Shown here one piece after another: positions 11,312 to 43,957 of a stretch of DNA of 64,000 nt (positions are counted from its first letter, which is position 1; each line of letters opens with the position of its first letter). The translations under genes were made by a program, and so were the position numbers. The notes under the pieces are model-generated. The model made no database searches, was not told the DNA's origin, and saw only the letters and a list, made by a program, of their open reading frames with translations. The DNA is from Gautieria morchelliformis (Eukaryota > Basidiomycota > Agaricomycetes > Gomphales > Gomphaceae): assembly GCA_015179125.1 (NCBI GenBank), contig WHVA01000133.1:62001-126000 (forward strand). The letters are read 5' to 3'.

Positions 11312-11354
11312 GCTCGCTTACGTCAGGGTGGTTGGTTCCTGGTGTCCCCTATCT
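11312..11354 (-). repeat. Right terminal inverted repeat
   Basis: Ends GGTGTCCCCTATCT, the mirror of the left terminus, and is followed by TA. The outermost 28 bases match the left end exactly. Confidence 0.8.
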
Positions 11355-11361
11355 TATTTAT

Positions 11362-11694
11362 TTTGGATCCAATAACGTCTTAAAGGGCTCTAGAAATTAC
11401 AGCGTATTATGTATATGATGCGCTCCTGCTAGCTTTACCAACCGTGACCAACGCTCCTGGAAACTTTCAAGATCTGCATGGCGCCTTCTCATCACTAAGC
11501 TCCTTGCACTATGTTTCTGTACTCGTCCAGGACAACCTCTCTGGTTCAAGGCTGCTAGTGTTATTGCTGCAGATTCTCACCCAGGAGGTGGGATGCACCC
11601 ATAGGTTTTAAACGACTCTTAGGGATGAGAACAACTTCAGTGTTTCAACCCTCTTGAATGCATCAATTATGCTCGATATATGGTGCCATAATAT
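11362..11694 (+). repeat. Long direct repeat, copy 1
   Basis: Begins TTTGGATCCAATAACGTC and ends TATGGTGCCATAATAT. It is nearly the same as 43638-43957, in the same orientation, about 32 kb away. Differences are scattered substitutions, a three-base indel near 11415 and about 16 extra bases near 11653-11670 in this copy. It directly abuts the truncated end of element A and begins just after the TA that follows the TIR element. The repeat class is unknown. Confidence 0.85.
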
Positions 11695-14436: not shown

Positions 14437-14527
14437 CCTGAGATGACAGCATCTCTCCCTGCAAGTGTAGGGAGAGGTTGAGGACGAGTCACAAGACTCA
14501 TCCTCCTGGCTTCAATTGGCCAGGGTG

Positions 14528-14532
14528 GGCGT
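14528..14532 (+). repeat. Target-site duplication of element B (left)
   Basis: GGCGT directly before the 5' LTR; the same five bases follow the 3' LTR at 20725-20729. Confidence 0.9.
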
Positions 14533-14995
14533 TGTCAGGGGACACCCTGTTTTCCATTTCCAGTTCCGACTCCATTTCCGAAGACGCTTCCGATTCCGAT
14601 TCCATCTCCGCCTCCGCTCTCGGAAATGATTCCGCTTCTGGGAGAACTTCCACCAGTTCTGTTCGCCTTCCCAGTTCCACTCCAATTTCCGAGTTCCACC
14701 CTCGGAACAGTGTCGGAAATCAAGCGACTCGCGTAATAGGTGACATCAAGGGTCGATCAAGGGTCAGGGAGGTGCAGGGTTGATGGCGGGTGCCAAGTGT
14801 TGTCCCTGGCTGCGCAGCGTAGTATAATACGGGCTCGCTGACATTGGGGGTCCTTAGACTTTTCTCTTTGGATTTCCCCTTGTCAGGTGAGAATCCCCTC
14901 TCTTGTATGCTCTGTTCATTTATACAGACTTTGGATTTCCCCTTGTCAGTTGTGTGGTAGTGTGATCTCCACAACTAGCCAGGGTTGCCCTTACA
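14533..14995 (+). repeat. 5' LTR of element B
   Basis: 463 bases. The first 200 or so (U3) are a degenerate six-base-period repeat in which TCC recurs every six bases (TTCCGATTCCGATTCCATC...). A TATAAT box lies at 14823-14828, and the predicted RNA start (AGACTTTTCT) is 33 bases downstream at 14856. Confidence 0.95.
14823..14828 (+). promoter_or_regulatory. TATA box of element B LTR
   Basis: TATAAT, 33 bases (start to start) before AGACTTTTCT at 14856, which is the exact complement of the primer-binding site. That spacing fits a TATA-directed transcription start at or very near 14856. Confidence 0.6.
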
Positions 14996-14997
14996 GC

Positions 14998-15007
14998 AGA
15001 AAAGTCT
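14998..15007 (+). promoter_or_regulatory. Self-complementary primer-binding site
   Basis: AGAAAAGTCT, two bases after the LTR end, is the exact reverse complement of AGACTTTTCT at 14856-14865, the predicted 5' end of the element RNA. There is no TGG-type tRNA complement at this position. This is the arrangement of Tf1/sushi-type self-priming elements. The same pair is present in element C. Confidence 0.65.
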
Positions 15008-15182
15008 CTCCCATAGAGGACCGGCGGTCGTACTGCGTGTCGCAGCCGCCATAGGTGCGTTCGGAATCGGAGACAGCGACTCGGAGATCGCAACCTCTTC
15101 CGCACACACAGCGTACGACAGCCCTTCTTCTTACGTCGAGCTCCCAACCCCGGAAATCCCGTCCCACATTTCTCCTTCCGAC

Positions 15183-16358
15183 ATGGATCCGGACGATCGT
15201 CTTCGGAATATGGAGGAGGAATTGACGCGGAACCGGATGAAGACCGACGCGATTGAAACAGCCTTACAAGCGATTTTGGCTAAGTTAGATATTCCACAAG
15301 GTGGTGGAAATGAAATGTTGGACGATCCGGAATTCGGAAAAGCGGAACTAGCGGAGGAGAGAAAGTCCGCGAAGTTAGCAAAGGTCAAATCCGCAACTCC
15401 GGCGGACTTTGACGGAGATCGGGAGAAGGGACGCGCATTCTTCAACACATGCAGCATCTACTTCGCAATTGTCGGAGACCTCTTTCCGAACGACCAGGCT
15501 CGGATTCACTGGGCATTGTCCTTTTTCAAGTCGGACCGCGCATCCCGTTTTGCAAACAAGGTGATCCGACATGAAGCAAAGGGCAAGGGGAACTACTTCC
15601 GGGACTGGGACGCCTTCGAGAAAACATTTTCCGACCAGTTCTGCCCAAAAAATGAGCAGCTCACAGCCCTTACGAAGCTCGAGGGGACCAGCTGGTACCA
15701 GGCCAAGGATCCGGTCGATGACTATATCGATCGCTTCCAGGAGCTCATCGACCTTGCGGAGTATGATGACGACAAGACGATCGTCATCAAATTCCGACGA
15801 GGACTCGATCCGACACTCCAGAACCAAGTTGCGCTGCTTGGGGATGGAGCTCCGGACTTTGATGACCCGGAAGGGTGGTACCAAGCTGCACAGAGGGTGT
15901 CCCGGAACAGGGAAGCAAATGAGGCCTTCGTGGAGACGAGCCGGAATATGACGCGCAGTTCCACTCGTCCTACTCCACCTGTGCCAAAATCCGGAAGCAC
16001 ATTCATTCCCATGCGGAAAGTATTTCCGACGCTTTCTCCGCCCGCTCCTATTAGGAACCATAGCCCTCCTCCCTCGAAGAGTGGCCCTGCCCCGATGGAT
16101 GTTGACCGCATGCGTGGAGAAGGCCGCGGAACTATCACCTGCTTCCGATGTCAACAACCAGGCCACTATGCCCGCGAGTGCCCCCAAGCATTTGACATCC
16201 GGCTTATGACCACAGAGGAGAAACTCGAGCTCCTTCCAGAGTTCCTCGCACTTGCGGACATAAGCAGAGTGCCTACTGCGGAAGGAGTTTCCGAAAATGC
16301 GGAACATGGCGCATCGGAAGCGGAAGATGCGTCGGATTTTGTGACGCGCAGCGGGTGA
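15183..16358 (+). CDS. gag: Gag of chromovirus B
   Basis: A protein of 391 residues from the first ATG in frame (MDPDDRLRNMEEEL) to TGA at 16356-16358. An N-terminal coiled-coil-like stretch leads into a retrotransposon capsid domain (FFNTCSIYFAI, WDAFEKTFSDQF, VDDYIDRFQELIDLAEYDD, IKFRRGLDPTLQNQVALLG). A proline-rich linker follows, then one CCHC zinc knuckle, CFRCQQPGHYARECP (residues about 320-334), the usual nucleic-acid-binding motif. The same frame stays open back into the LTR but without an upstream ATG. Gag and pol are in different frames: pol is -1 relative to gag and is open from about 16197, so some 160 bases overlap. No stop or frameshift breaks it. Confidence 0.9.
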   Translation: MDPDDRLRNMEEELTRNRMKTDAIETALQAILAKLDIPQGGGNEMLDDPEFGKAELAEERKSAKLAKVKSATPADFDGDREKGRAFFNTCSIYFAIVGDLFPNDQARIHWALSFFKSDRASRFANKVIRHEAKGKGNYFRDWDAFEKTFSDQFCPKNEQLTALTKLEGTSWYQAKDPVDDYIDRFQELIDLAEYDDDKTIVIKFRRGLDPTLQNQVALLGDGAPDFDDPEGWYQAAQRVSRNREANEAFVETSRNMTRSSTRPTPPVPKSGSTFIPMRKVFPTLSPPAPIRNHSPPPSKSGPAPMDVDRMRGEGRGTITCFRCQQPGHYARECPQAFDIRLMTTEEKLELLPEFLALADISRVPTAEGVSENAEHGASEAEDASDFVTRSG

Positions 16359-19300
16359 GATGTGTGCCCCTGCTGCCTGTACATAACCGGTTTGCCTGTC
16401 TTGAAGTAGAGAATGAAAAGCCCCGACTCCCCTCACTTCATACAGACCCACCGGATATCACACAAAAGCCAAATCCGACACCCCGTCTATCCCGCATCCG
16501 CCCTTGGGAGAGACGCCTTCCGAAACGCTATGTCGTTGCTGCCACCCCTGGCCCCAAGTCACTAGTCATTAAGGTAGAGATCCAGACGACAGATACGGCG
16601 GAAGTCAAATCCGGACCCGCCCTTGTCGATTGCGGGGCCACTGGTCAGTTTATGGACCGGGACTATGTGGAACGGAACCGACTGACCACGCGGAAGTTGC
16701 AACGTGCAATCCCGGTGTTCAATGTGGATGGAAGCCCCAATGAGGCAGGGTCCATCACGGAGATAGTGGACACAATTCTCCGCTACGATGGACACTCGGA
16801 ACGCACTCCCTTCGCTGTCACCAGCCTGGGGAAGCAAGACATCATCCTTGGGTTTACCTGGCTTCAAGAGCACAACCCGGAGATCAATTGGCAGACTCGG
16901 AAGGTACTGATGAGTCGATGTCCAGCCAAGTGTCACATGTGCCGGTCGGAAGTGCGGAAGGAGCACCAGGAGCAGCGGAAGACCGAACGGCTCATACAGA
17001 CATGTCGTTCCGGCCCCCATCCACTGCTTGCAGAAGAAGACTCGGAAGCGGAATTTGACCCGGATCCCCCTTCCAAGTCCGATTCCGACGTCATCCGACT
17101 CGGCCTGGAAGACGCTCTGACGGAAGGGGAGCACTTGCTGTACGTAAACCTTCCGCCGGAGGCGGAACACATCCGCGCCACCGGAAATATTTCGCAACGC
17201 CTTGCTGAAGCCTCTAAGAGGTATGATAGAGTGGAGGCGGAAATTCCGGAGTACCTGCGGGAGTTTGAGGACGTCTTCTCCAAGGAGTCGTTTGATGCCC
17301 TGCCTCCGCGGAAACTGTGGGACCATGCCATCGAGTTGGAGCCTGGGTCGAAGCCCACCAACTGCAAGGTCTACCCGCTGTCACCCAAGGAGCAGGTAGA
17401 GCTCGATGCATTCCTTGCGGAAAATCTCCGTACAGGGAGGATCCGCCCCTCCAAGTCACCCATGGCATCTCCGGTGTTCTTCATCAAGAAGAAGGACGGC
17501 TCGCTCAGACTTGTGCAGGATTACCGGGCCTTGAATGCGATCACGATCAAGAACCGGTACCCCATTCCGCTCATTTCCGAATTGATCACACAACTCCGCG
17601 GGGCGAAGTACTTCACCAAGCTGGATGTCCGCTGGGGCTTCAATAATGTCCGGATCCGGGAGGGAGATGAGTGGAAGGCCGCATTCCGCACCAACCAAGG
17701 ACTCTTTGAGCCACAGGTCATGTTCTTTGGCCTCACCAACAGTCCTGCCACGTTCCAGACAATGATGAATGACATTTTCCGTGACATGATAGCAGAAGGG
17801 GTTGTCTGCGTCTACCTCGATGACATCCTCATCTTCACAAAAACAATGTCCGAACATCGGGAAGTCGTGCGGAGAGTGCTGGAACGACTCCGGGAGTACA
17901 ACCTGTGTCTCAAGCCGGAAAAGTGCGAATTTGAGCGGACGCGGATAGAGTATCTTGGGGTGATCGTGTCGGAAGGAAAGGTGGAAATGGACCCCGTCAA
18001 GGTTTCCGGTGTGTCGGATTGGCCGGTGCCGCGGAACAAGAAGGAAGTCCAGTCCTTCATTGGGTTTGTCAATTTCTACCGGCGGTTCATCAAGGACTTC
18101 TCCTGCCACGCCCGTGCCCTCTTCGACCTCACCAAGAAGGAGGTTGGATGGCGGTGGGGAGAGCCGGAACGGGCCTCCTTTGACAAACTCAAGGAGCTGA
18201 TCACTTCCGCCCCGGTCCTGATCTTTCCGGACGACTCTCGCCCTTATCGAGTCGAGGCGGATTCTTCCGACGCAGCTACCGGAGCGGTCTTGTCACAGCA
18301 GTCATTGGAAGAAGGTGGGGGGTGGCATCCGATTGCCTTCTTCTCTAAGAGTCTCAGTCCGGTCGAGCGGAACTACGAGATCCATGACAAGGAGATGCTG
18401 GCAATCATCCGAGCGCTGGAGGAGTGGCGACACTTCCTTGAGGGTGCTCTATGCCCATTTGAGATCTGGACAGACCACAAGAACCTTGAGTATTTCCGCA
18501 CGTCTAAGAAGTTGAACCGACGACAAGCACGGTGGTCCCTACACCTGTCCCGGTTTGACTTCAGGCTCCACCACCGCCCCGGCCGCACCATGGGCAAGCC
18601 CGATGCCCTATCCCGCCGTGCGGATCATGGAAGCGGAAGCGGAGACAATGCGGATATGACACTGCTCCGCCCAAGTCTCTTTGCAATCCGCGCCCTAGAA
18701 GGAGTGACTGCAGTTGGAGCGGAAGCGGAAATGCTCCGGGACATCCGGAGACAGTATCGGAATGGAGAGAAGGAGGAGTCGGTGGTGAAGGCAGTGGAGG
18801 AACTTCGGAAAGGGCACTCACGGTCTGTACGGGCAGCGGAATGGTCGGAACGGGATGGGCTGCTCCACTTCAGAGGCAAGGTCTACATTCCAGATGGGGC
18901 GGACCTCCGCCGCCGCATCGTGTCCCAGCACCATGACACATGGGTCGCTGGGCATGCTGGCAGGTGGAAGACGCTGGAGTTAGTGGCTCGGAATTACTGG
19001 TGGCCTCAGATGTCCCGCTACATTGGACAGTACGTGAAGACATGTGACCTTTGTCTCCGAACCAAAGCGCAACGACATCCACCCGTCGGAGAACTTGTTC
19101 CGCTCCTGATTCCCGAATCCCGCTGGGACACCATCAGCGTCGACTTCATTGTTGAACTCCCAGAGTCTCATGGCTACGACGCGATCATGAACGTCGTGGA
19201 TTCGGTAAGCAAGGTGTCCCACTTCATTCCGACGCACACGACGATCACAGCCCTCGGAGCGGCCCGCCTGTTCCTTGCCCATGTCTGGAAGTTGCATGGG

Positions 19301-20512
19301 CTCCCGAAGCAAGTGGTTTCCGACCGAGGTCCGCAGTTTGTCGCGGAACTGACTCGGGAGCTCTACCGCCTGCTCGGCATAAAGCTAGCTACCACCACGG
19401 CGTACCATCCGCAGGGTGACGGACAGACGGAACGGGTCAATCAGGAGTTGGAGCAATATCTCCGCCTCTTTGTCAATGAGAGGCAGGACGACTGGGATGA
19501 ATTACTTCCGCTGGCGGAATTCCAATACAACAACCATGTCCATTCCGCCACACAACAGACTCCCTTCATGCTCGACTCCGGACGACACCCGCGGATGGGC
19601 TTCGAACCACGCCAGGCTGAGTCCCGACTCGAGACGGTCAATGAGTTCCGAGACCGCATGGACTCCACCCTTTCGGAAGCCAAGTCGGCCCTTGCAAAGG
19701 CCAAGGATGACATGGCGAGGTACTACAACCAACGCCGGGTTCCTGCCCCAGAGTACCAAGTTGGAGACAAGGTGTATCTAGATGCAAATGACATCCGCAC
19801 CACACGCCCTTCACAGAAGCTTGCCCACCGCTACCTTGGGCCCTTCACAGTGACGCGGAGGGTTGGACGGAATGCATACCGCCTGCGACTTCCGATGTCC
19901 ATGTCCCGCCTCCACCCCGTCTTCAACGTGGTGAAGTTACTCCCTATGCTTGAGGACCCAATTCCAGGTCGGAAGGCTCATCCGCCACCTCTGCCAGAGA
20001 TTGTAGATGGGGAGGAGCACTATGTGGTGGAACGGATCCTGGACAGCCGGTTTGTGCGAGGACGACTCCAATTCCTCGTGAAATGGGAAGGGTATGGGTA
20101 CGAAGAGAATTCGTGGGTCCCGGAGCAAGATGTTTCCGCCCCGGACAAGCTCGGGGAGTTCTATAGGACACATCCCGGTGCCCCTCGCCGGATCCGCTCG
20201 TTGGCATTTCAATCCCTCGTGTCCCGTGCTTCGAGGACGCAGCACGCTAGAGAGGGGGTGATGTCAGGGGACACCCTGTTTTCCATTTCCAGTTCCAACT
20301 CCATTTCCGAAGACGCTTCCGATTCCGATTCCATCTCCGCCTCCGCTCTCGGAAATGATTCCGCTTCTGGGAGAACTTCCACCAGTTCTGTTCGCCTTCC
20401 CAGTTCCACTCCAATTTCCGAGTTCCACCCTCGGAACAGTGTCGGAAATCAAGCGACTCGCGTAATAGGTGACATCAAGGGTCGATCAAGGGTCAGGGAG
20501 GTGCAGGGTTGA
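16355..20512 (+). CDS. pol: Pol of chromovirus B (PR-RT-RH-IN-chromodomain)
   Basis: An uninterrupted frame of about 1,385 codons. In order: protease with the unusual active-site variant LVDCGATGQF (near residue 90, DCGA rather than DSGA/DTGA); reverse transcriptase with FTKLDVRWGFNNVRI and YLDDILIF (near 485); RNase H with VEADSSDAATGAVLSQQ and EMLAIIRALEEWRHF; integrase with an HHCC zinc region (HHDTWVAGHAGRW...CDLC), the catalytic acids in SVDFIVELP, SDRGPQF and QTERVNQELEQ, and a GPF motif; and a chromodomain (HYVVERILDSR...FLVKWEGYGYEENSWVPE), which identifies a chromovirus. There is no ATG in this frame before the protease, so expression probably depends on -1 frameshifting from gag. 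The stop at 20512 lies 251 bases inside the 3' LTR. Confidence 0.93.
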   Translation: MRCVPLLPVHNRFACLEVENEKPRLPSLHTDPPDITQKPNPTPRLSRIRPWERRLPKRYVVAATPGPKSLVIKVEIQTTDTAEVKSGPALVDCGATGQFMDRDYVERNRLTTRKLQRAIPVFNVDGSPNEAGSITEIVDTILRYDGHSERTPFAVTSLGKQDIILGFTWLQEHNPEINWQTRKVLMSRCPAKCHMCRSEVRKEHQEQRKTERLIQTCRSGPHPLLAEEDSEAEFDPDPPSKSDSDVIRLGLEDALTEGEHLLYVNLPPEAEHIRATGNISQRLAEASKRYDRVEAEIPEYLREFEDVFSKESFDALPPRKLWDHAIELEPGSKPTNCKVYPLSPKEQVELDAFLAENLRTGRIRPSKSPMASPVFFIKKKDGSLRLVQDYRALNAITIKNRYPIPLISELITQLRGAKYFTKLDVRWGFNNVRIREGDEWKAAFRTNQGLFEPQVMFFGLTNSPATFQTMMNDIFRDMIAEGVVCVYLDDILIFTKTMSEHREVVRRVLERLREYNLCLKPEKCEFERTRIEYLGVIVSEGKVEMDPVKVSGVSDWPVPRNKKEVQSFIGFVNFYRRFIKDFSCHARALFDLTKKEVGWRWGEPERASFDKLKELITSAPVLIFPDDSRPYRVEADSSDAATGAVLSQQSLEEGGGWHPIAFFSKSLSPVERNYEIHDKEMLAIIRALEEWRHFLEGALCPFEIWTDHKNLEYFRTSKKLNRRQARWSLHLSRFDFRLHHRPGRTMGKPDALSRRADHGSGSGDNADMTLLRPSLFAIRALEGVTAVGAEAEMLRDIRRQYRNGEKEESVVKAVEELRKGHSRSVRAAEWSERDGLLHFRGKVYIPDGADLRRRIVSQHHDTWVAGHAGRWKTLELVARNYWWPQMSRYIGQYVKTCDLCLRTKAQRHPPVGELVPLLIPESRWDTISVDFIVELPESHGYDAIMNVVDSVSKVSHFIPTHTTITALGAARLFLAHVWKLHGLPKQVVSDRGPQFVAELTRELYRLLGIKLATTTAYHPQGDGQTERVNQELEQYLRLFVNERQDDWDELLPLAEFQYNNHVHSATQQTPFMLDSGRHPRMGFEPRQAESRLETVNEFRDRMDSTLSEAKSALAKAKDDMARYYNQRRVPAPEYQVGDKVYLDANDIRTTRPSQKLAHRYLGPFTVTRRVGRNAYRLRLPMSMSRLHPVFNVVKLLPMLEDPIPGRKAHPPPLPEIVDGEEHYVVERILDSRFVRGRLQFLVKWEGYGYEENSWVPEQDVSAPDKLGEFYRTHPGAPRRIRSLAFQSLVSRASRTQHAREGVMSGDTLFSISSSNSISEDASDSDSISASALGNDSASGRTSTSSVRLPSSTPISEFHPRNSVGNQATRVIGDIKGRSRVREVQG
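20249..20261 (+). promoter_or_regulatory. Polypurine tract of element B
   Basis: AGAGAGGGGGTGA directly before the 3' LTR, the expected plus-strand primer site. It is also within the pol reading frame. Confidence 0.7.
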
Positions 20513-20724
20513 TGGCGGGTGCCAAGTGTTGTCCCTGGCTGCGCAGCGTAGTATAATACGGGCTCGCTGACATTGGGGGTCCTTAGACTTTTCTCTTTGG
20601 ATTTCCCCTTGTCAGGTGAGAATCCCCTCTCTTGTATGCTCTGTTCATTTATACAGACTTTGGATTTCCCCTTGTCAGTTGTGTGGTAGTGTGATCTCCA
20701 CAACTAGCCAGGGTTGCCCTTACA
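20262..20724 (+). repeat. 3' LTR of element B
   Basis: 463 bases, matching the 5' LTR except at 20297. It is followed by GGCGT (20725-20729). Its first 251 bases carry the end of the pol reading frame. Confidence 0.95.
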
Positions 20725-20729
20725 GGCGT

Positions 20730-33773: not shown

Positions 33774-33873
33774 ATGGATTTACTTGATGAAGACATGATG
33801 AATGAGATGGACCAAGGGATGGGGGACCTGACTGAATATTTTCATAGACATAGTCTACATGACTGTGCATCTG

Positions 33874-34039
33874 TGTTGGAGAGCGAGCGACGTCATGGTG
33901 GCGTCACTCATAGTGTCAGGCTGAGACACTGAGGAATGGTTTATAAATTAGTACTGGATGTGCATTAATTGCTCGTGCGGTTGTAACCCGCAGTTGTGCA
34001 TTGTCGTTTTGCTATCAAGCGCATCGCTGTTTTCCTACA
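33874..34039 (+). repeat. TRIM left LTR
   Basis: 166 bases, with TATAAA at 33942. GTGCGGTTG at 33975-33983 lies 33 bases downstream of the TATA start and is the exact complement of the first 9 interior bases. Confidence 0.92.
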
Positions 34040-34048
34040 CAACCGCAC
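34040..34048 (+). promoter_or_regulatory. TRIM self-complementary primer-binding site
   Basis: CAACCGCAC begins at the base after the LTR and is the reverse complement of GTGCGGTTG in the LTR (33975-33983), the predicted RNA 5' end. It is not a tRNA-type TGG site. Confidence 0.6.
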
Positions 34049-34130
34049 AATAACCTTGCCCCATCGAGGCCGAAATCAATACTCTAGCCCCGTCGAGGCC
34101 GAAATCGACATTGAAACCCGCTTACTGAGT

Positions 34131-34426
34131 CGCGCCTAACGAAAGCGCGCTTAGTCGTCGAAGGACACGCCTATTGAAAGCGTGTTAAACCGACCCGGAA
34201 GTCGCACCTACCGAAAGTGCGCCACGCCTACCGAAAGCGTGTACCATTCTCGAGCCTACCGAAAACTCAAGTTTCGTCGAAAGCCACGGCTATTGAAAGC
34301 GTGCTAACCCTCGGAAGTCGCACCTACCGAAAGTGCGCCACGCCTAACGAACCGTTGATTGTAATTGTGCCTACCAAAAGCACATCGATTGCCGGCCTAA
34401 CGAAAGCCACACCTAACAAAAGTGTG
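34131..34426 (+). repeat. Array of about ten hairpins with a shared loop
   Basis: Units have the form stem / CTA(AC, CC or TT)(G or A)AAA / complementary stem. Positions and left stems: 34131 CGCGC; 34165 ACACGC; 34203 CGCAC; 34223 CACGC; 34249 CTCGAG (one mismatch); 34285 CACGG (one mismatch); 34319 CGCAC; 34339 CACGC (right arm lost); 34366 TGTGC; 34394 GGC; 34408 CACAC. Right arms are complementary in each case, for example GCGCG, GCGTGT, GTGCG, GCGTG, GCACA, GCC and GTGTG. A longer unit covering three hairpins has been duplicated (about 34165-34241 and 34285-34357), but the other stems are distinct. Confidence 0.85.
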
Positions 34427-34590
34427 CCCCCCCGCCCCCCTTCTGTTCATTTGCCTTTACTCTCTTGTCGTTGTCTCTTTGCCCGAAGCATGGCAGGGCC
34501 ACTTTACAGATGCTGTAGAAGGGGGATGATGAAGATTTTGCACCCTGAGTTTCAGGAGGTGCTTTAGATTCGACGCTGCTCGAGGAGGTG

Positions 34591-34756
34591 TGTTGGAGAG
34601 CGAGCGACGTCATGGTGGCGTCACTCATAGTGTCAGGCTGAGACACTGAGGAATGGTTTATAAATTAGTACTGGATGTGCATTAATTGCTCGTGCGGTTG
34701 TAACCCGCAGTTGTGCATTGTCGTTTTGCTATCAAGCGCATCGCTGTTTTCCTACA
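34591..34756 (+). repeat. TRIM right LTR
   Basis: 166 bases, the same as the left LTR at every position compared; followed by ATCTG. Confidence 0.92.
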
Positions 34757-36891
34757 ATCTGGCTGTAAGTATATTCTGCAAATAAACATTCATCATACTG
34801 AGGGACTCTAGATTTACCTTCAGGTCTCAATCCTGACCTATGGAAGAATACCACTCTTCCATCTGGCCCAAAGTTCATTGAAGGTATTTAGTATTTTGTT
34901 CTATAGCTATATAATTCTGAATGAGCTATAGAACATCTACTGCAATTGCCATCTTCAGCACGGAAGATTTCAAAGCCACTCTGTCAAAGCATAATATCAA
35001 GTTGGCCTATGGATGATGAGGAAGCATATCGAAAGCTCATCACACCATACACCTTTTATCATTTGCTTTTTGTGAGTAAACTTGAAGATGCGGTAAATGA
35101 AGAGCATAATTCTGGCGAAGTAAGTTCTATTCATATAGTGGTTATAACTACTAATGCATTCTCTTCTGTATAGGAAAATGGAGCAGCACAACAGCTGCAC
35201 CACCATGTATGTTATATATATTACATAATTTTCATGGTATAATCCTTATTTTATAACAGGTACAAGTTTACCCAGATGAAGGAAAAGCCAGCATACATCA
35301 TATTTTCATGGAGGTTGCAGAATCCATGCCAAACATGCAATCTATTGTTGCAAGGGCTAAGGGATATACTGGAGCACTGAGGAAAGTTCGAAAGGTGGGT
35401 TCAGGTGCTCGAGCCCAGGCTATTTGGCTCGGATTACTCAGGCTTGTCATTATCTATATATTAGAATGTCTTTTTTCATATAATTGCTTTTTAGAGTTTC
35501 TGATTCAGACCTAGCCGGTCTGGATAACAAGTTTATTTTGGAGACGGCAGAACAACTTCAAGAGGTCCTTGAGGACAACAAAACCAATACTGAGGCTGTG
35601 ATTCTCATCCAAGGCACCCATTACAGGGTGTGTGCCCCCAAGACTGGTAAAATGCAGTCTGCCATTTTTTGGACAAAGGAATCTGAAGCTGACATTACAC
35701 CAACTTGGGAAAAAGTTGTAAGTTTTTGTTTGACTATATATTTAAATATTATTGAAGAATTGGATTAGTTTGGAGGTGTAATTTACAATGCAGACACTCT
35801 CCAAGAGATCTTCAAGGATGAAGGTACACTTAGTCAGCAGATGGTAGAAGCAACGATGCTTTCAGTCATGTGTGTAATTTTCTTTTTATTATAATTTTTT
35901 TAACAATTTTTTAGAGATAATATAACTGTCCAGCGTGGCCAACGAATGAGTACAGATGGGATGATGGTCAAGGGAATGGGCCTTCAGAGTACAAATGGAA
36001 AGCTCTACACAGGTCAAGTAAGTGCTTATTGAATGGAATTATTTATGAAGTTAATATATTTTAGATCAAACCGCTACCAGAGCCTACTTCAGCCAATCCT
36101 AGGCCGGCAACATTGCAAAAAATCCATGAACGGCAGCAGTTGCGTGAAGAACTGCATAAGAACTGGGGATGTAAGTCAATCCTCAAATTTTCTATTCGAA
36201 GGCTCAATTACAAACAGTCAATCAAGCCATTTGGTATAATCTCATTTTAGGCTTCTTGCCACCCTGGGCTAAGCATCAGCAGGTATTGTATTTTTATTTT
36301 TTTTAATCCTAATTTTTAATCAAAAAACCAGGCACTTAGTGAGATGTACCCGGATCAACTTTTAAATGAACTTGGGACTCCAAACACATCTTCTTTTTGC
36401 ACATATGCATATTGTGCTTCATCACACTTGGATAAGGATGACGGCTATACATGGGGAAGAGTTGTACGACGATCAAACAAGGTATGTATGGTCACATATT
36501 TGGCCTAAGTTATAATGACTTGATTATTTGATTAGGTTCTGAGGAGTGAAAGCAACTTTATATGGGCATCCCACAAGCTTACTGTGGAGATGGAAGAAGG
36601 TGCATTCTGGTTTTGGAATGCAAGTCAAGACTATCATGGAACAAGTATGAATAGAATCGCACTACTTCGCCCAGCTACGTTCAAGAATTTTGTAAAGCAT
36701 GCTCCAGATGATGCACAATGGACACTTGTCCATGTTGTCCCCTATTCGGTGACAATGGCTGCAAGGGCAGAGTCAAGGGCCTAAGACACCTGATGTATTT
36801 TGCTAAGGAGTTGAGGAAATACACATTTCATTGAATTTATTAGGGATGCCCACCGTACCATACTGTACCGTAACCCATAGGGTACAGGTCA

Positions 36892-37125: not shown

Positions 37126-37141
37126 CACTTAGAGCTGCCTC

Positions 37142-37630
37142 TGTAAGGGCAACCCTGGCTGGTTGTGGAGATCACACTACCACACAACTGACAAGGGGAA
37201 ATCCAAAGTATGTATAAATGAACGGAGTATACAAGACCGGGGATTCTCACCTGACAAGGGGAAATCCAAAGAGAAAAGTCTAAGGACCCCCAATGTCAGC
37301 GAGCCCGTATTATACTACGCTGCACAGCCAGGGACAACACTTGGCACCCGCCATCAACCCTGCATCCCCTGACCTCCCTGACCCTTGATCGACCCTTGAT
37401 GCCACCTATTATGCGAGTCGCTTGATTTCCGACACTGTTCCGGGAGTGGAAGTCGGGAATTGGGGTGGAACTGGCAAGGCGAACAGAACTGGTGGAAGTT
37501 CTCCCAGAAGCGGAATCATTTCCAAAAGCGGAGGCGGAGATGGAATCGGAACCGGAAGTGGAGTCGGAAATGGAGTCGGAACTGGGTGTGGTGTCGGAAC
37601 TGGAAATGGAAAACAGGGTATCCCCTGACA
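37142..37630 (-). repeat. 3' LTR of element C
   Basis: 489 bases; its U3 hexamer region is longer than that of element B, which accounts for most of the length difference (463 against 489). Confidence 0.92.
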
Positions 37631-40600
37631 TCACCCCCCCTCTAGCGTGCTGCGTCCTCGAAGCACAGGACACGAGGGATTGAAATGCCAGCGAGCGGAT
37701 TCGGCGAGGGGCACCGGGATGTGTCCTATAGAACTCACGGAGTTTGTCTGGAGCGGAAACATCTTGCTCCGGGACCCACGAATTCTCCTTGTACCCATAC
37801 CCTTCCCATTTCACGAGGAATTGGAGTCGTCCTCGCACAAACCGGCTGTCCAGGATCCGTTCCACCACATAGTGCTCTTCCCCATCTACAATTTCCGGCG
37901 GAGGTGGCGGATGAGCCTTCCGACCTGGAATTGGGTCCTCAAGCATAGGGAGTAACTTCACCACGTTGAAGACGGGGTGGAGGCGGGACATGGACATCGG
38001 AAGTCGGAGGCGGTATGCATTCCGTCCAACCCTCCGCGTCACTGTGAAGGGCCCAAGGTAGCGGTGGGCAAGCTTCTGCGAAGGGCGTGTGGTGCGGATG
38101 TCACTTGCATCTAGGTACACCTTGTCTCCAACTTGGTACTCCGGGGCAGGAACCCGGCGTTGGTTGTAGTACCTTGCCATGTCATCCTTGGCCTTCGCAA
38201 GGGCCGACTTGGCTTCTGAAAGGGTGGAGTCCATACAGTCTCGGAACTCATTGACTGTCTCGAGTCGGGAGTCAGCCTGGCGTGGTTCGAAGCCCATCCG
38301 CGGGTGTCGTCCGGAGTCAAGCATGAAGGGAGTCTGTTGCGTGGCGGAATGGACATGGTTGTTGTATTAGAATTCCGCCAGCGGAAGTAACTCATCCCAG
38401 TCATCCTGCCTCTCATTGACAAAGAGGCGGAGATATTGCTCCAACTCCTGATTGACCCGTTCCGTCTGTCCGTCACCCTGCGGATGGTACGCTGTGGTGG
38501 TAGCCAGCTTTATGCCGAGCAGGCGGTAGAGCTCCCGAGTCAGTTCCGCGACAAACTGCGGACCTCGGTCGGAAACAACTTGCTTCGGGAGCCCATGTAA
38601 CTTCCAGACATGTGCAAGGAACAGGCGGGCCGCTCCGAGGGCTGTGATCGTCGTGTGCGTCAGAATGAAGTGGGACACCTTGCTTACCGAATCCACGACG
38701 TTCATGATCGCGTCGTAGCCATGAGACTCTGGGAGTTCAACGATGAAGTCAACACTGATGGTGTCCCAGCGGGATTCGGGAATCGGGAGCGGAACAAGTT
38801 CTCCAACGGGCGGATGTCGTTGCGCTTTGGTTCGGAGACAAAGGTCACACGTCTTCACATACTGTCCGATGTAGCGGGACATCTGAGGCCACCAGTAATT
38901 CCGAGCCACTAACTCCAGCATCTTCCACCTGCCAGCATGCCCAGCGACCCGTGTGTCATGGTGCTGGGACACGATGCGACGGCGGAGGTCTGCCCCACCT
39001 GGAACATAGACCTTGCCTCTGAAGTGGAGCAGTCCATCATGTTCCGACCATTCCGCTGTCCGTACAGACCGTGAGTGCCCTTTCCGGAGTTCCTCCACTG
39101 CCTTCACCACCGACTCCTCCTTCTCTCCATTCCGGTACTGCCTCCGGATATCCCGGAGCATTTCCGCTTCCGCCCCAACTGCAGTCACTCCTTCTAGGGC
39201 ACGGATTGCAAAGAGACTTGGGCGGAGCAGTGTCATATCCACGTTGTCTCCACTTCCGCTTCCATGATCCGCATGGCGGGATAGGGCATCGGGCTTGCCC
39301 ATGGTGCGGCCGGGGCGGTGGTGGAGCATGAAGTCAAACCGGGACAGGTGTAGGGACCACCGTGCTTGTCGTCGGTTCAGCTTCTTAGACGTGCGGAAAT
39401 ACTCGAGGTTCTTGTGGTCTGTCCAGATCTCAAAAGGGCATAGAGCACCCTCGAGGAAGTGTCGCCACTCCTCCAGCGCTCGGATGATTGCCAGCATCTC
39501 CTTGTCATGGATCTCATAGTTCCGCTCGACCGGACTAAGGCTCTTAGAGAAGAAGGCAATCGTATGCCACCCCCACCATCTTCCAATGACTGCTGTGACA
39601 AGACCGCTCCGGTAGCTGCGTCGGAAGAATCCGCCTCGACTTGATAAGGGCGAGAGTCGTCCGGAAAGATCAGGACCGGGGCGGAAGTGATCAGCTCCTT
39701 GAGTTTGTCAAAGGAAGCCTGTTCCGGCTCTCCCCACCGCCATCCAACCTCCTTCTTGGTGAGGTCGAAGAGGGCACGGGCGTGGCAGGAGAAGTCCTTG
39801 ATGAACCGCCGGTAGAAATTGACAAACCCAATGAAGGACTGGACCTCCTTCTTGTTTCGCGGCACAGGCCAATCCGATACACCGGAAACTTTGACTGGGT
39901 CCATTTCCACCTTTCCTTCCGACACAATCACCCCAAGATACTCTATCCGCGTCCGCTCAAATTCGCACTTTTCCGGCTTGAGACACAGGTTGTACTCCCG
40001 GAGCCGTTCCAGCACTCTCCGCACGACTTTCCGATGTTCGGACCTTGTTTTTGTGAAGATGAGGATGTCATCGAGGTAGACGCAGACAACCCCTTCTGCT
40101 ATCATGTCACGGAAAATGTCATTCATCATTGTCTGGAACGTGGCGGGACTGTTGGTGAGGCCAAAGAACATGACCTGTGGCTCAAAGAGTCCTCAGTTGG
40201 TGCGGAATGCGGCCTTCCACTCGTCTCCCTCCAGGATCCGGACATTGTTGAAGCCCCAGCGGACATCCAGCTTAGTGAAGTACCTCGCCCCGTGGAGTTG
40301 TGTGATCAGTTCGGAAATGAGTGGAATGGGGTACCGATTCTTGATCGTGATCGCATTCAAGGCCCGGTAATCCTGCACAAGTCTGAGCGAGCCGTCCTTC
40401 TTCTTGATGAAGAACACCGGAGATGCCATGGGTGACTTGGAGGGGCGGATCCTCCCTGTACGGAGGTTTTCCGCAAGGAATGCATCGAGCTCTACCTGCT
40501 CCTTGGGTGACAGCGGGTAGACTTTGCAGTTGGTGGGCTTTGACCCAGGCTCCAACTCGATGGCGTGGTCCCACAGCTTCCGTGGAGGCAGGGTATCAAA

Positions 40601-41556
40601 CGACTCCTTGGAAAAGACGTCCTCGAACTCTCGCAGGTACTCCAGAATTTCCGCCTCTACTCTATCATGCCTCTTGGAGGCTTCAGCAAGGCGTTGCGAA
40701 ATATTTCCGGTGGCGCGGATGTGTTCCGCTTCCGGCGGAAGGTTTACGTACAGCAAGTGCTCCCCTTCCGCCAGAATGTCTTCCGGGCCGAGTCGGACGA
40801 CGTCGGAGTCGGAATCAGAATCGGAATCAGAATCGGAAGTGGGATCCGGTTCAAATTCCGCTTCCGAGTCTTCTTCCGCAAGCAGTGGATGGGGGCCAGA
40901 ACGACACGTCTGTATGAGCCGTTCGGTCTTCCGCTGCTCTTGGCGCTCCTTCCGCACTTCCGACCTGCACATGTGACACTTGGCTGGACATCGACTCATC
41001 AGTACCTTCCAAGTCTGCCAATTGATCTCCGGGTTGTGCTCCTGAAGCCAGGTAAACCCGAGGATGATGTCCTGCTTCCCCAGGCTGGTGACTGCAAAGG
41101 AAGTGCGTTCTGAGTGTCCATCGTAGCGGAGAATTGTGTCTACTATCTCCGTGATGGACCCTGCCTCATTGGGGCTTCCATCCACATTGAACACCGGGAT
41201 TGCACATTGCAACTTCCGCGTGGTCAGCCGGTTCCGTTCCACATAGTCCCGGTCCATAAACTGACCAGTGGCCCCGCAATCGACAAGGGCGGGTCCGGAT
41301 TTGACTTCCGCCGTATCTGTCGTCTGGATCTCCACCTTAATGACTAGTGACTTGGGGCCAGGGGTGGCAGCAACAACATAGCGCTTCGGAAGGCGTCTCT
41401 CCCAAGGGCGGATGCGGGATGGATGGGGTGTCGGTTTTGGTTTTTGTGTGACTTTATCCGGTGGGTCTGTATGAAGTGAGGGAGTGGGGGCTTTTCATTC
41501 TCTACTTCAAGACAGGCAAACCGGTTATGTACAGGCAGCAGGGGCACACATCTCAC
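37296..41556 (-). pseudogene. Element C pol (broken)
   Basis: Same domain order as in element B. Breaks seen: a frameshift near 41440 before the protease; a stop near 40193, where the B codon CAA (after AAFRTN) is TGA; a one-base insertion in a run of Gs near 39570, in RNase H; and a stop near 38370 (LLPLAEF then TAA, where B has CAA). The final frame (38324-37296) still reads the integrase C-terminus and chromodomain and runs on into the LTR. Confidence 0.9.
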
Positions 41557-42722
41557 CCGCTGCGTGTCACAAAATCCGACGCATCTTCCGCTTCCGGTGG
41601 ACCATGTTCCGCATTTTCGGAAATGTCTTCTGCAGTGGGCACTCCGCTTATGTCCGCAAGTGCGAGGAACTCTGGAAGGAGCTCTAGTTTCTCCTCTGTG
41701 GTCATAAGCCGGACATCAAAGGCTTGGGGGCATTCGCAAGCATAGTGGCCTGGTTGTCGACAGCGGAAGCAGGTGATAGTTCCGTGGCCTTTTCCGCGCA
41801 TGCGGTCAACATCCATCGGGGCAGGGCCACTCTTCAAGGGAGGAGGGCTATGGTTCCTAATAGGAGCAGGCGGAGCAAGCATCGGAAATATTTTCCGTGT
41901 GGGAATGAATGCGCTTCCGGGTTTTGGCACAGGTGGAGTAGGACGAGTGGAACTGCGTGTCATGTTCCGGCTCGTCTCCACGAAGCCTCATTTGCCTCCC
42001 TGTTCCAGACACCTTCTGCGCAGCTTGGTACCACCCTTCCGGGTCATCAAAATCCGGAGCTCCATCCCCAAGCAGCGCAACTTGGTTCTGGAGTGTCGGA
42101 TCAAGTCCTCGTCGGAATTTGATGACGATCGTCTTGTCGTCGTCATATTCCGCAAGGTTGATGAGCTCCTGGAAGTGGTCAATGTAGTCATCGAACGGAT
42201 CCTTGGCCTGGTACCAGCTTGTCCCTCGAGCTTCGTAAGGGCTGTGAGCTGCTCGTTTTTCGGGCAGAACTGGTCGGAAAATGTTTTCTCGAAGGCGTCC
42301 CAGTCCGGAAGTAGTTCCCCTTGCCCTTTGCTTCATGTCGGATCACCTTGTTTGCAAAACGGGCTGCGCGGTCCAATTGAAAAAGGACAATGTCCAGTGA
42401 ATCCGAGCCTGGTCGTTCGGAAAGAGGTCTCCGACAATTGCAAAGTAGATGCTGCATGTGTTGAAGAATGCACATCCCTTCTCCCGATCTCCGTCAAAGT
42501 CCGCTGGAGTTGCGGGTTTGACCTTTGCTAACTTCGCGGACTTCTCTCTTCCGCTAGTTCCGCTTTTCCGAAATCTGGATCATCCAGCATTTCATTTCCA
42601 CCACTTTGTGGAATATCTAACTTAGCCAAAATCGCTTGTAAGGCTGTTTCAATCGCGTCGGTCTTCATCCGGTTCCGCGTCAATTCCTCCTCCATATTCC
42701 GAAGACGATCATCCAGATCCAT
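41553..42722 (-). pseudogene. Element C gag (broken)
   Basis: The start MDLDDRLRNMEEEL near 42722 and the end with knuckle CFRCRQPGHYACECP match element B, but frames change several times between 42530 and 41980 through small insertions and deletions. Confidence 0.85.
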
Positions 42723-42908
42723 GTTGGAAGGAGAAATATGGGACGGGATTTCCGGGGTTGGGAGCTCGACGTAAGAAGAGGGGCTGTCGTACGCTGTGTG
42801 TGCGAAGAGGTTGCGATCTCCGAGTCGCTGTCTCCGATTCCGAACGCACCTATGGCGAATGCAACGCGCAGTACGACCGCTGGTCCTCTAGGGGAGAGAC
42901 TTTTCTGC

Positions 42909-43396
42909 TGTAAGGGCAACCCTGGCTAGTTGTGGAGATCACACTACCACACAACTGACAAGGGGAAATCCAAAGTATGTATAAATGAACGGAGTATACA
43001 AGAGAGGGGATTCTCACCTGACAAGGGGAAATCCAAAGAGAAAAGTCTAAGGACCCCAATGTCAGCGAGCCCGTATTATACTACGCTGTGCAGCCAGGGA
43101 CAACACTTGGCACCCGCCATCAACCTGCATCCCCCTGACCTCCCTGACCCTTGATCGACCCTTGATGCCACCTATTATGCGAGTCGCTTGATTTCCGACA
43201 CTGTTCCGGGAGTGGAAGTCGGGAATTGGGGTGGAACTGGCAAGGCGAACAGAACTGGTGGAAGTTCTCCCAGAAGCGGAATCATTTCCAAAAGCGGAGG
43301 CGGAGATGGAATCGGAACCGGAAGCGGAGTCGGAAATGGAGTCGGAACTGGGTGTGGTGTCGGAACTGGAAATGGAAAACAGGGTGCCCCCTGACA
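42909..43396 (-). repeat. 5' LTR of element C
   Basis: 488 bases, beginning (minus strand) TGTCAG and ending TTACA, with the internal region to the left. It differs from the other LTR by scattered substitutions and small indels, so C is older than B. Confidence 0.92.
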
Positions 43397-43401
43397 GCCT
43401 C

Positions 43402-43637
43402 TAACTTGGATTATATACTATTAGCTATCCCCGCCTTCAATAAATGGCAGTATTCTGGAACCGGATCAAATACAATTATGCAGTTCCAATGTGTCAGGGG
43501 TAGGCTTTGCACAAGCGATGCGTAAAATAGAAAATTAAATAATGTGGTTGAGTTCATGGAACTCTTGTGGTGGCCACCACTGCTGTAAAACTAAAACTGT
43601 GGTATGTAAAGAGACATGAATACAGGATTCATACCTG
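43402..43637. other. No gene recognised
   Basis: AT-rich sequence between element C and the 330-base repeat; no coding frame of note. Confidence 0.4.
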
Positions 43638-43957
43638 TTTTGGATCTAATAACGTTTTAAAGGGCTCTAGAAATTACAGCGTATTATGTATATAATGATG
43701 CGCTCCTGCTAGCTTTACCAACCGTGACCAACGCTCCTGGAAACTTTCAAGATCTGCATAGCGCCTTCTCATCACTAAGCTCCTTGCACTATGTTTCTGT
43801 ACTCGTCCAGGACAACCTCTCTGGTTCGGGGCTGCTAGTGTTATTGCTGCAGATTCTCACCCAGGAGGCGGGGTGCACCCATAGGTTTTAAACGACTCTT
43901 AGGGACGAGAACAACTTCGGCGTTTCAACCCTCGCTCGATATATGGTGCCATAATAT
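43638..43957 (+). repeat. Long direct repeat, copy 2
   Basis: Matches 11362-11694 in the same orientation. It ends at the same point (GGTGCCATAATAT) and is then followed by unrelated sequence. No coding frame or terminal repeats were seen in it. Confidence 0.85.

Follow-up and report, generated by a model that had tools for sequence, protein, structure and literature searches.

A hairpin array with constant loop flanks in a fungal TRIM and in the leaders of Gag-only Copia-type elements

The TRIM and its hairpin array

In the window (the entire 64,000-nucleotide stretch of Gautieria morchelliformis DNA that we analysed), positions 33874-34756 are occupied by a TRIM of 883 nt, with the target-site duplication (TSD) ATCTG located by script on both sides. 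Its two LTRs (33874-34039 and 34591-34756; 166 nt each, 100% identical in an alignment within the window) enclose an interior of 551 nt, which contains a self-complementary PBS and a polypurine tract (PPT; CTCGAGGAGGTG) and is filled to more than half by a hairpin array at 34131-34426. An earlier sequence-only reading of this locus had described a TRIM without protein, and indeed no ATG ORF of at least 30 aa lies inside the interior. Across all 11 TRIM copies the longest ATG-started open stretch does not exceed 59 codons, and on these grounds a coding role of the array was rejected. A GTG-started frame of 116 codons (34217-34567) runs through the array of the window copy; it is open in this copy only, because of the copy's deletion history, the longest open stretches in the ten other copies being 63-99 codons. 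The element comprises the following features:

33869..33873, no strand: 5' target-site duplication ATCTG (sequence, script)
33874..34039, plus: 5' LTR TGTTGG...CCTACA, 166 nt (identity to the 3' LTR; ends fixed by the TSD)
33942..33947, plus: TATAAA, 33 nt upstream of the self-complementary segment; putative promoter role (sequence)
33975..33983, plus: GTGCGGTTG, LTR segment complementary to the PBS, candidate self-primer (sequence, script)
34040..34048, plus: PBS CAACCGCAC, immediately 3' of the 5' LTR (script)
34092..34109, plus: separate hairpin GTCGA-GGCCGAAA-TCGAC, 8-nt loop (inverted-repeat scan)
34131..34149, plus: hairpin 1, CGCGC-CTAACGAAA-GCGCG (covariance model R1, inverted-repeat scan)
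34165..34185, plus: hairpin 2, ACACGC-CTATTGAAA-GCGTGT (model R1, inverted-repeat scan)
34203..34221, plus: hairpin 3, CGCAC-CTACCGAAA-GTGCG (model R1, inverted-repeat scan)
34223..34241, plus: hairpin 4, CACGC-CTACCGAAA-GCGTG (model R1, inverted-repeat scan)
34251..34269, plus: hairpin 5, with a closing-pair mismatch; some sister copies have this hairpin intact (model R1, copy alignment)
34285..34303, plus: hairpin 6, with a closing-pair mismatch; some sister copies have this hairpin intact (model R1, copy alignment)
34319..34337, plus: hairpin 7, CGCAC-CTACCGAAA-GTGCG (model R1, inverted-repeat scan)
34339..34351, plus: hairpin 8, truncated, with the 5' arm and part of the loop left (copy alignment)
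34366..34384, plus: hairpin 9, TGTGC-CTACCAAAA-GCACA (model R1, inverted-repeat scan)
34394..34408, plus: hairpin 10, GGC-CTAACGAAA-GCC, 3 bp only (model R1)
34408..34426, plus: hairpin 11, CACAC-CTAACAAAA-GTGTG (model R1, inverted-repeat scan)
34484..34590, plus: remnant of a gag 3' end (clade-B-like ORF) and the region after it (70-74% identity to six clade-B elements, E 3e-15 to 5e-13)
34579..34590, plus: polypurine-tract-like CTCGAGGAGGTG ahead of the 3' LTR, common to the Gag-only elements (sequence)
34591..34756, plus: 3' LTR (alignment to the 5' LTR)
34757..34761, no strand: 3' target-site duplication ATCTG (sequence, script)

Eleven hairpin units thus make up the array: seven intact, one with a 3-bp stem and three damaged. 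The intact units (starting at 34131, 34165, 34203, 34223, 34319, 34366 and 34408) have perfect Watson-Crick stems of 5-6 bp and 9-nt loops with the consensus CTA-NNR-AAA, in which the CTA and AAA flanks are constant and the centre varies. The sequence-only reading had counted about ten inverted repeats with a fixed loop, each stem matched by its own complement. The repeats are real, but the loop is fixed in its flanks only, and the matching holds for 8 of the 11 units, two others having a mismatched closing pair and one being truncated. This last one (34339) was cut by an 11-nt deletion that is missing from sister copies. A duplicated hairpin block, also noted earlier, is visible in the self-comparison of the window (families D2 and D4). 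Simple tandem repetition can be rejected, as had been argued from the start, given that TRF reports nothing at the array and the stems differ.

A scan for inverted repeats that takes no account of the loop found nine of at least 5 bp in 34039-34440 (300 shuffles: mean 2.4, maximum 7), seven of which carry the 9-nt loop. A loop of this type recurred in 12 of 14 inverted repeats of another TRIM (L005), in 6 of 7 of a Gag-coding element (L031) and in 4 of 4 of a second one (L049), two of the latter being variant loops. The inverted-repeat count exceeded all 300 shuffles in both TRIMs. For L031 and L049 the highest shuffle counts, 7 and 5, are no lower than the observed ones. The same scan of one leader from each of three other Gag clades showed no such array.

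Within the window, the loop motif (at most one mismatch) occurs eight times, always within the array, against 1.4 expected, and covariance model R1 finds nine full-length units and a partial one, again all in the array. R1 was trained on 70 of 119 distinct 19-mers, mostly well-paired ones, so its scores lean towards paired units. A known RNA family, tRNA, 5S or hammerhead was rejected as the source: the tRNA scan was blank, and Rfam gave no match at gathering score in the window, nor up to E 1 in the TRIM, limits that a decayed relic could escape.

The array as a leader of Gag-only elements

Searching the genome with the TRIM yielded 61 matches; in one group of these, the ATG of a Copia-type Gag comes immediately after the array. 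The Gag search delineated two close clades, A (L031-L046 and L056; 81-100% identity) and B (L047-L055 and L057-L060; 65-71%), which are 62-71% identical to each other in Gag protein. In both, the array is the 5' leader between the primer site and the gag ATG, its last stem ending about 13-21 nt ahead of the ATG; it is therefore not an architecture peculiar to TRIMs. At least two strict hairpins lie upstream of gag in 27 of the 30 fetched loci (A 14/17, B 13/13), and 20 of the 30 have an LTR-like pair 1.07-1.52 kb apart. From these two features we conclude that the clade A and B loci are Gag-only elements, with LTRs enclosing gag without pol. The earlier suggestion of a cis signal recognised by the Gag of an autonomous partner fits the position of the array directly upstream of gag, but the partners found are Gag-only and not autonomous.

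The open frames of clades A and B reach 336 aa, the longest (L052) being extended by an inserted Gypsy piece, and none exceeds this length among the matches listed at 60% identity or more. By eye, a piece of L052 at about 2215-2640 (gag-strand count) resembles the LTR of the Gypsy element in the window. The Gag carries a PF14223 domain (E 1.4e-28), matches the Copia VLP protein 8vvw over residues 11-237 (E 3.7e-16) and also 8s41, and matches nucleocapsid zinc knuckles, as expected of a Copia-type Gag. It is under purifying selection, with a median dN/dS of 0.22 in clade A and 0.27 in clade B (15 open gag frames from the 30 loci, L041 being kept out of the means on account of an indel); dS between the clades is saturated. 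A protein search found 156 Gag relatives of similar size at E 1e-3, with Hypsizygus, Ganoderma and Phanerochaete among the best 120.

TRIM copies carry more hairpins than the Gag elements (7-13 vs 4-7; p 0.0002, for 7 TRIM and 15 Gag elements chosen by the analyst). Soon after the PBS there is also a second hairpin type, with an 8-nt loop GGCCGAAR and stems that differ between clade A and the TRIM on one side and a more distant Gag clade, C, on the other. It lies at 34092-34109 in the window, at about 1297-1316 (gag-strand count) in L031 and in the leader of L063; the clade C counterpart of the window hairpin, ACTGG-GGCCGAAG-CCAGT, has nearly the same 8-nt loop. Clades C and D (L061-L069) are further Gag-only families with different leaders. 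Three of their members (L062, L063 and L065) were presumably active recently, since their LTRs are 100% identical.

Distribution in the genome

A strict DNA pattern of two neighbouring hairpins matched 94 times in the 122-Mb genome, vs once in the reversed control, and the 94 matches group into 56 clusters, at least three of which (C336, C373 and C488) look by eye like chance or another repeat. We related these clusters to 83 merged gag places, leaving out a group at roughly 30% identity. Places with a cluster no more than 700 nt upstream of gag numbered 5 of 28 at 80% identity or more, 23 of 33 at 60-79% and 1 of 22 at 44-59% (0 of the 9 nearly full-length ones); the single place in the last class (C558, 59%) falls near the border of clade B. 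The strict pattern detects clade A poorly and clade B well (3/20 and 17/20 nearly full-length gags, respectively), because of the hairpin spacing.

Model R1, which is independent of spacing, gave 267 matches over 67 loci. It found none in 16 fetched distant Gag loci (L061-L074, L078 and L079), in the leaders of three long-ORF Copia elements (L100-L102, from two families, LTRs not delimited), in two decayed close loci (L044 and L056) or, as a negative control, in 19 IMG/VR loci with chance loop pairs. In the latter no array is paired: the longest stem is the 4 bp of a single unit in L086, the others having at most 3 bp. Common descent by itself could account for the restriction to one Gag group.

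As for an autonomous relative with a hairpin leader, none was found among the long-ORF Copia leaders L100-L102 or the 67 listed long-frame gags. The latter (frames of at least 1000 aa) had a cluster within 2 kb upstream in 0 of 67 cases among the matches listed, a zero that is informative only within the sensitivity of the pattern and concerns gags mostly resembling one family. At the expected primer-site position, L100-L102 carry GGTTATGGGCCCCGC and no array; this sequence resembles a half-tRNA-iMet site. A search for PBS-like sites of a possible enzyme donor gave 44 places, none of which could be matched by eye to a long-ORF element among 150 of 2723 candidates. In one distant Gag clade (L070 and L071) the leader contains GGTTATGGGCCCCG, as in the long-ORF elements L100-L102, a hint that this clade may be mobilised by long-ORF Copia elements with a tRNA-type primer.

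The two long elements of the window, 14522-20725 and 37141-43353, were rejected as partners: they are Gypsy-type and neither holds the array. The first is assigned to this type by its RVT_1, RNase H, integrase and chromo domains; the second is an inverted copy of it, 93-96% alike over most pieces, with 11-bp repeats in the LTRs. A dispersed repeat of ~300 nt, 90-97% identical, is found at 11352-11653 and 43629-43933.

A primer site complementary to the LTR

The bases that follow the 5' LTR are complementary to an internal LTR segment. In the window TRIM the pair is CAACCGCAC/GTGCGGTTG, whose LTR member starts 33 nt past TATAAA and probably marks the 5' end of the TRIM RNA. The corresponding PBS/LTR pairs are CAACTGCGT/ACGCAGTTG in clade A, CAAACGGAT/ATCCGTTTG in clades B and D, and CAAACGCAT/ATGCGTTTG in clade C; those of L002 and L055 are altered. 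The pair sequence thus varies by family, yet the complementarity holds, over six different sequence pairs. An exact PBS complement of 7-10 nt is present in 17 of the 27 elements whose LTR ends were set by script; one of the ten without it (L006) is a wrong repeat pair. In clades C and D, six of seven elements with script-set LTR ends have a self-complementary PBS. By the analyst's reading, 5-bp TSDs agree in 19 of the 23 elements with a script-set 5' flank.

The PBS would accordingly pair with the 5' segment of the same RNA, and priming in the TRIM and its Gag-only relatives is predicted to be Tf1-like self-priming. Such self-priming has been predicted in Copia elements for the plant TAR lineage (Houba, Osr-1; PMC6317226, in part), where, as in Tf1-type elements, the PBS complements a segment within the 5' LTR; here the complement is usually 9 nt long and occurs in Gag-only Copia-type elements.

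Gag-less derivatives and chimaeras

Positions 34484-34590 are 70-74% identical to the clade-B gag 3' end, which implies that most of gag was lost from the TRIM while the array was kept. Judged by these identities, the TRIM is a gag-deleted derivative that retains the gag 3' end, the PPT and the self-complementary PBS.

Gag-less forms of the array occur with three LTR types, and several are chimaeras with Gag-only elements. L002 and L003 are made up like the window TRIM. Four others (L005, L006, L008 and L014) have LTRs of the Gag-A type (78-96%) and a matching leader (81-88%), joined to the array and tail of the TRIM (tail 87-92%); L004 combines a Gag-A-like 5' LTR (79%) with a TRIM-type 3' LTR (95%), and L030 has clade-B-like LTRs (79%) and gag in pieces only. 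Array length changes by whole units among copies. Template switching between co-packaged RNAs would give chimaeras like the first four. DNA recombination is also a possible source, and it is suggested by L004, because ordinary retrotransposition should not leave a hybrid LTR pair.

A candidate packaging signal

We propose, with slightly more than half of our confidence, that the TRIM inherited the array from a lineage of small Gag-only Copia-type elements, in which it serves as a signal in the 5' leader, and that Gag may bind it for packaging. The RNA would be transcribed from the LTR and would display 4-13 hairpins, whose common loop could be bound at many places by subunits of this Gag, which carries a CCHC knuckle and resembles the Copia VLP capsid protein. 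Through such multivalent binding the RNA would be chosen and packed, a full Copia element would supply reverse transcriptase and integrase, and cDNA synthesis would be self-primed. A protein-less TRIM, being richer in hairpins than its Gag-coding relatives, would compete better for their Gag. We favour a multivalent Gag site because the anatomy of the array, its distribution, its retention after gag loss, its multiplication in the TRIM and the chimaeras all fit. More tentatively, and at somewhat less than even confidence, there may be a packaging code, whereby this Gag group would read CUA-NNR-AAA loops and leave the stems free, Gag-only elements would carry 4-7 copies and the parasite up to 13, and an enzyme donor, a Gag donor and an RNA-only element would share one particle system.

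The earlier suggestion of dimerisation through the array does not fare well in its simplest form: kissing between the loops of like hairpins was considered, and it is unlikely because the loop is not self-complementary.

It seems unlikely that a host RNA-binding protein, and not Gag, reads the loops, e.g., to export the element RNA from the nucleus, localise it or stabilise it. Host recognition motifs, too, typically combine a short constant loop with varied stems, and elements without gag do retain the array. However, the same host has distant Gag-only elements, some of them with a self-complementary PBS, that lack the array, which argues that the host has no general need of it, an argument weakened by shared descent.

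Pairing and conservation

An RNA-level function might be absent altogether, if tandem duplication, together with copying of one arm from the other, kept the stems complementary; in quasi-palindrome correction, a reverse transcriptase switches template and copies one arm from the other. The whole-unit length changes and the duplicated block agree with this, as do the uncompensated private mutations of the TRIM copies, but we consider it rather doubtful, for reasons given below after the pairing data. A survey of 48 loci gave 145 distinct units, of which 90 have all four inner pairs (shuffle mean 45, maximum 60). Pairs 2-5 show two to four Watson-Crick types each, and pairing ends sharply past pair 5, pair 6 being at expectation. 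These units were picked by the loop motif (two are stray matches in L017), so that their loop constancy holds by construction; the loop-blind scan is the independent check on it. For the 16 hairpins present in at least three loci, 75 of 80 pairs are Watson-Crick.

Stem covariation, as claimed by the sequence-only reading, is thus strong when units or clades are compared, but TRIM copies compared with one another show none. The alignment of 11 copies has 371 paired cells out of 397 (shuffle mean 372.0), and 849 of 1000 shuffles do as well, so that this alignment lends no support of its own to selection on the stems. Stems mutating without compensation, the finding that the reading had named as evidence against itself, are therefore what the TRIM copies show, while both Gag clades give a weak positive signal: 318 of 333 cells are paired in clade A and 426 of 437 in clade B, values reached by 16 and 7 of 1000 shuffles, respectively. 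Uncompensated decay of inserted TRIM copies is expected if selection acts on the transposing lineage only. The alignments comprised 11 of 14 gag-less array loci, 13 of 17 clade-A loci and 16 clade-B loci, L077 being left out; L050 and L051 occupy the same place on two contigs and may be alleles.

Over the three alignments, column variability is 0.27 in loops, 0.33 in stems and 0.45 in linkers, with both stems (p 0.003) and loops (p 6e-6) less variable than linkers. Taken singly, stems do not differ significantly from linkers in the TRIMs (p 0.08) or clade B (p 0.38), nor do loops in clade B (p 0.47). A reading without function leaves unexplained the constant loop flanks and the uniform 5-bp stems with their sharp end at pair 6, and it has against it the lower variability of the loops and the persistence of the array in two Gag clades at 62-71% protein identity.

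Strand of action

If the minus strand were the acting one, the hairpins would form in antisense RNA or minus-strand cDNA and might, e.g., regulate the element or pause or guide reverse transcription. Folded as RNA, the window array is hardly better than shuffled on the plus strand (z -0.8) and has a z of -4.7 on the minus strand; across five arrays, z ranges from +0.2 to -2.2 on plus and, in four of the five, from -3.1 to -4.7 on minus. The ordinary folding of the plus strand counts against the packaging proposal made above. Ten single hairpins average -7.9 kcal/mol on the minus vs -4.6 on the plus strand, the energy model counting the 9-nt loop as unstructured and leaving out possible CUA-AAA contacts. 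With DNA parameters, however, the two strands are equal (-3.8 vs -3.7), and the cDNA argument therefore falls. Distinct units show an excess of A.C over G.U states (64 vs 38, p 0.013), but the family alignments show none (36 vs 42); these counts do not favour the plus strand and are not decisive on the strand of action. As the array sits before gag in the sense transcript, we consider action through the minus strand improbable.

Equally improbable is that the array controls gag translation, through scanning or through Gag repression as in a phage operator, for although in clades A and B only about 13-21 nt separate the last stem from the gag ATG, the array is retained and even multiplied in TRIMs, which have no gag start. 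A double role in translation control and packaging is possible by analogy with the MS2 stem-loop (PMC6281560, in part).

Relation to known systems

None of the separate ingredients is new: there are earlier descriptions of TRIMs, of Gag-only elements, of self-priming and of packaging signals with multiple hairpins. Like other TRIMs, the window element is short and gene-less, with short LTRs, a PBS and PPT and a 5-bp TSD; it differs in that its interior is mostly a hairpin array common to gag-coding relatives and its PBS complements its own LTR. TR-GAG elements are Gag-only LTR elements of plants. The partners described here likewise encode Gag alone between LTRs, but they are fungal, about 1.3 kb long, with a Copia-type Gag and a leader hairpin array. 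Helenus, Ajax and Cassandra are also TRIMs, some of them in Agaricomycetes and the fungal ones with 5-bp TSDs (PMC10886601, in part). The Rfam and tRNA scans found no tRNA- or 5S-like sequence in the window TRIM, its LTRs included, although a decayed relic could escape them.

Ty1 belongs to the Copia superfamily. Its packaging region, too, is a 5' RNA structure linked to Gag binding, a pseudoknot, however, vs an array of like hairpins here, and Ty1 Gag has high affinity and low specificity for RNA (PMC8396678, in part). The Conserved Hairpin Site of GalEa, also a hairpin beside the 5' LTR of fungal Copia elements, is a single one with a conserved stem that replaces the PBS (PMC5445492, in part). 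Here, there are many hairpins with a conserved loop, and the LTR is followed by a self-complementary PBS instead of a palindromic 9-bp sequence.

Similar in design are the multiple packaging signals described for MS2 and STNV-1, which likewise consist of several stem-loops with a common loop motif in variable context (PMC6281560, PMC6475782, both in part). Several stem-loops with a common loop motif are present in our elements as well, in a compact array within a retrotransposon, with a 9-nt loop with constant flanks, as candidates for recognition. In STNV-1, five putative AxxA stem-loops lie near the 5' end, and in vivo data weigh against their being true packaging signals (PMC6475782, in part). 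Among the titles and abstract openings listed by our searches of open-licence PMC papers, we met no description of a constant-loop hairpin array as the leader of Gag-only Copia-type elements and their gag-less derivatives.

Implications

How the Gag of LTR retrotransposons chooses its RNA is a poorly understood problem, on which the array bears, and it is a matter of dispute if a set of similar stem-loops can serve as packaging signals (for STNV-1, see PMC6475782, in part). With a constant loop on varied stems, differing unit numbers, a Gag group in which some members have the array and others lack it, and gag-less elements that use it, these elements provide a natural test set, and both questions could be addressed with short synthetic RNAs and one protein of ~250 aa. 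The array also suggests a route by which a protein-less element may be mobilised.
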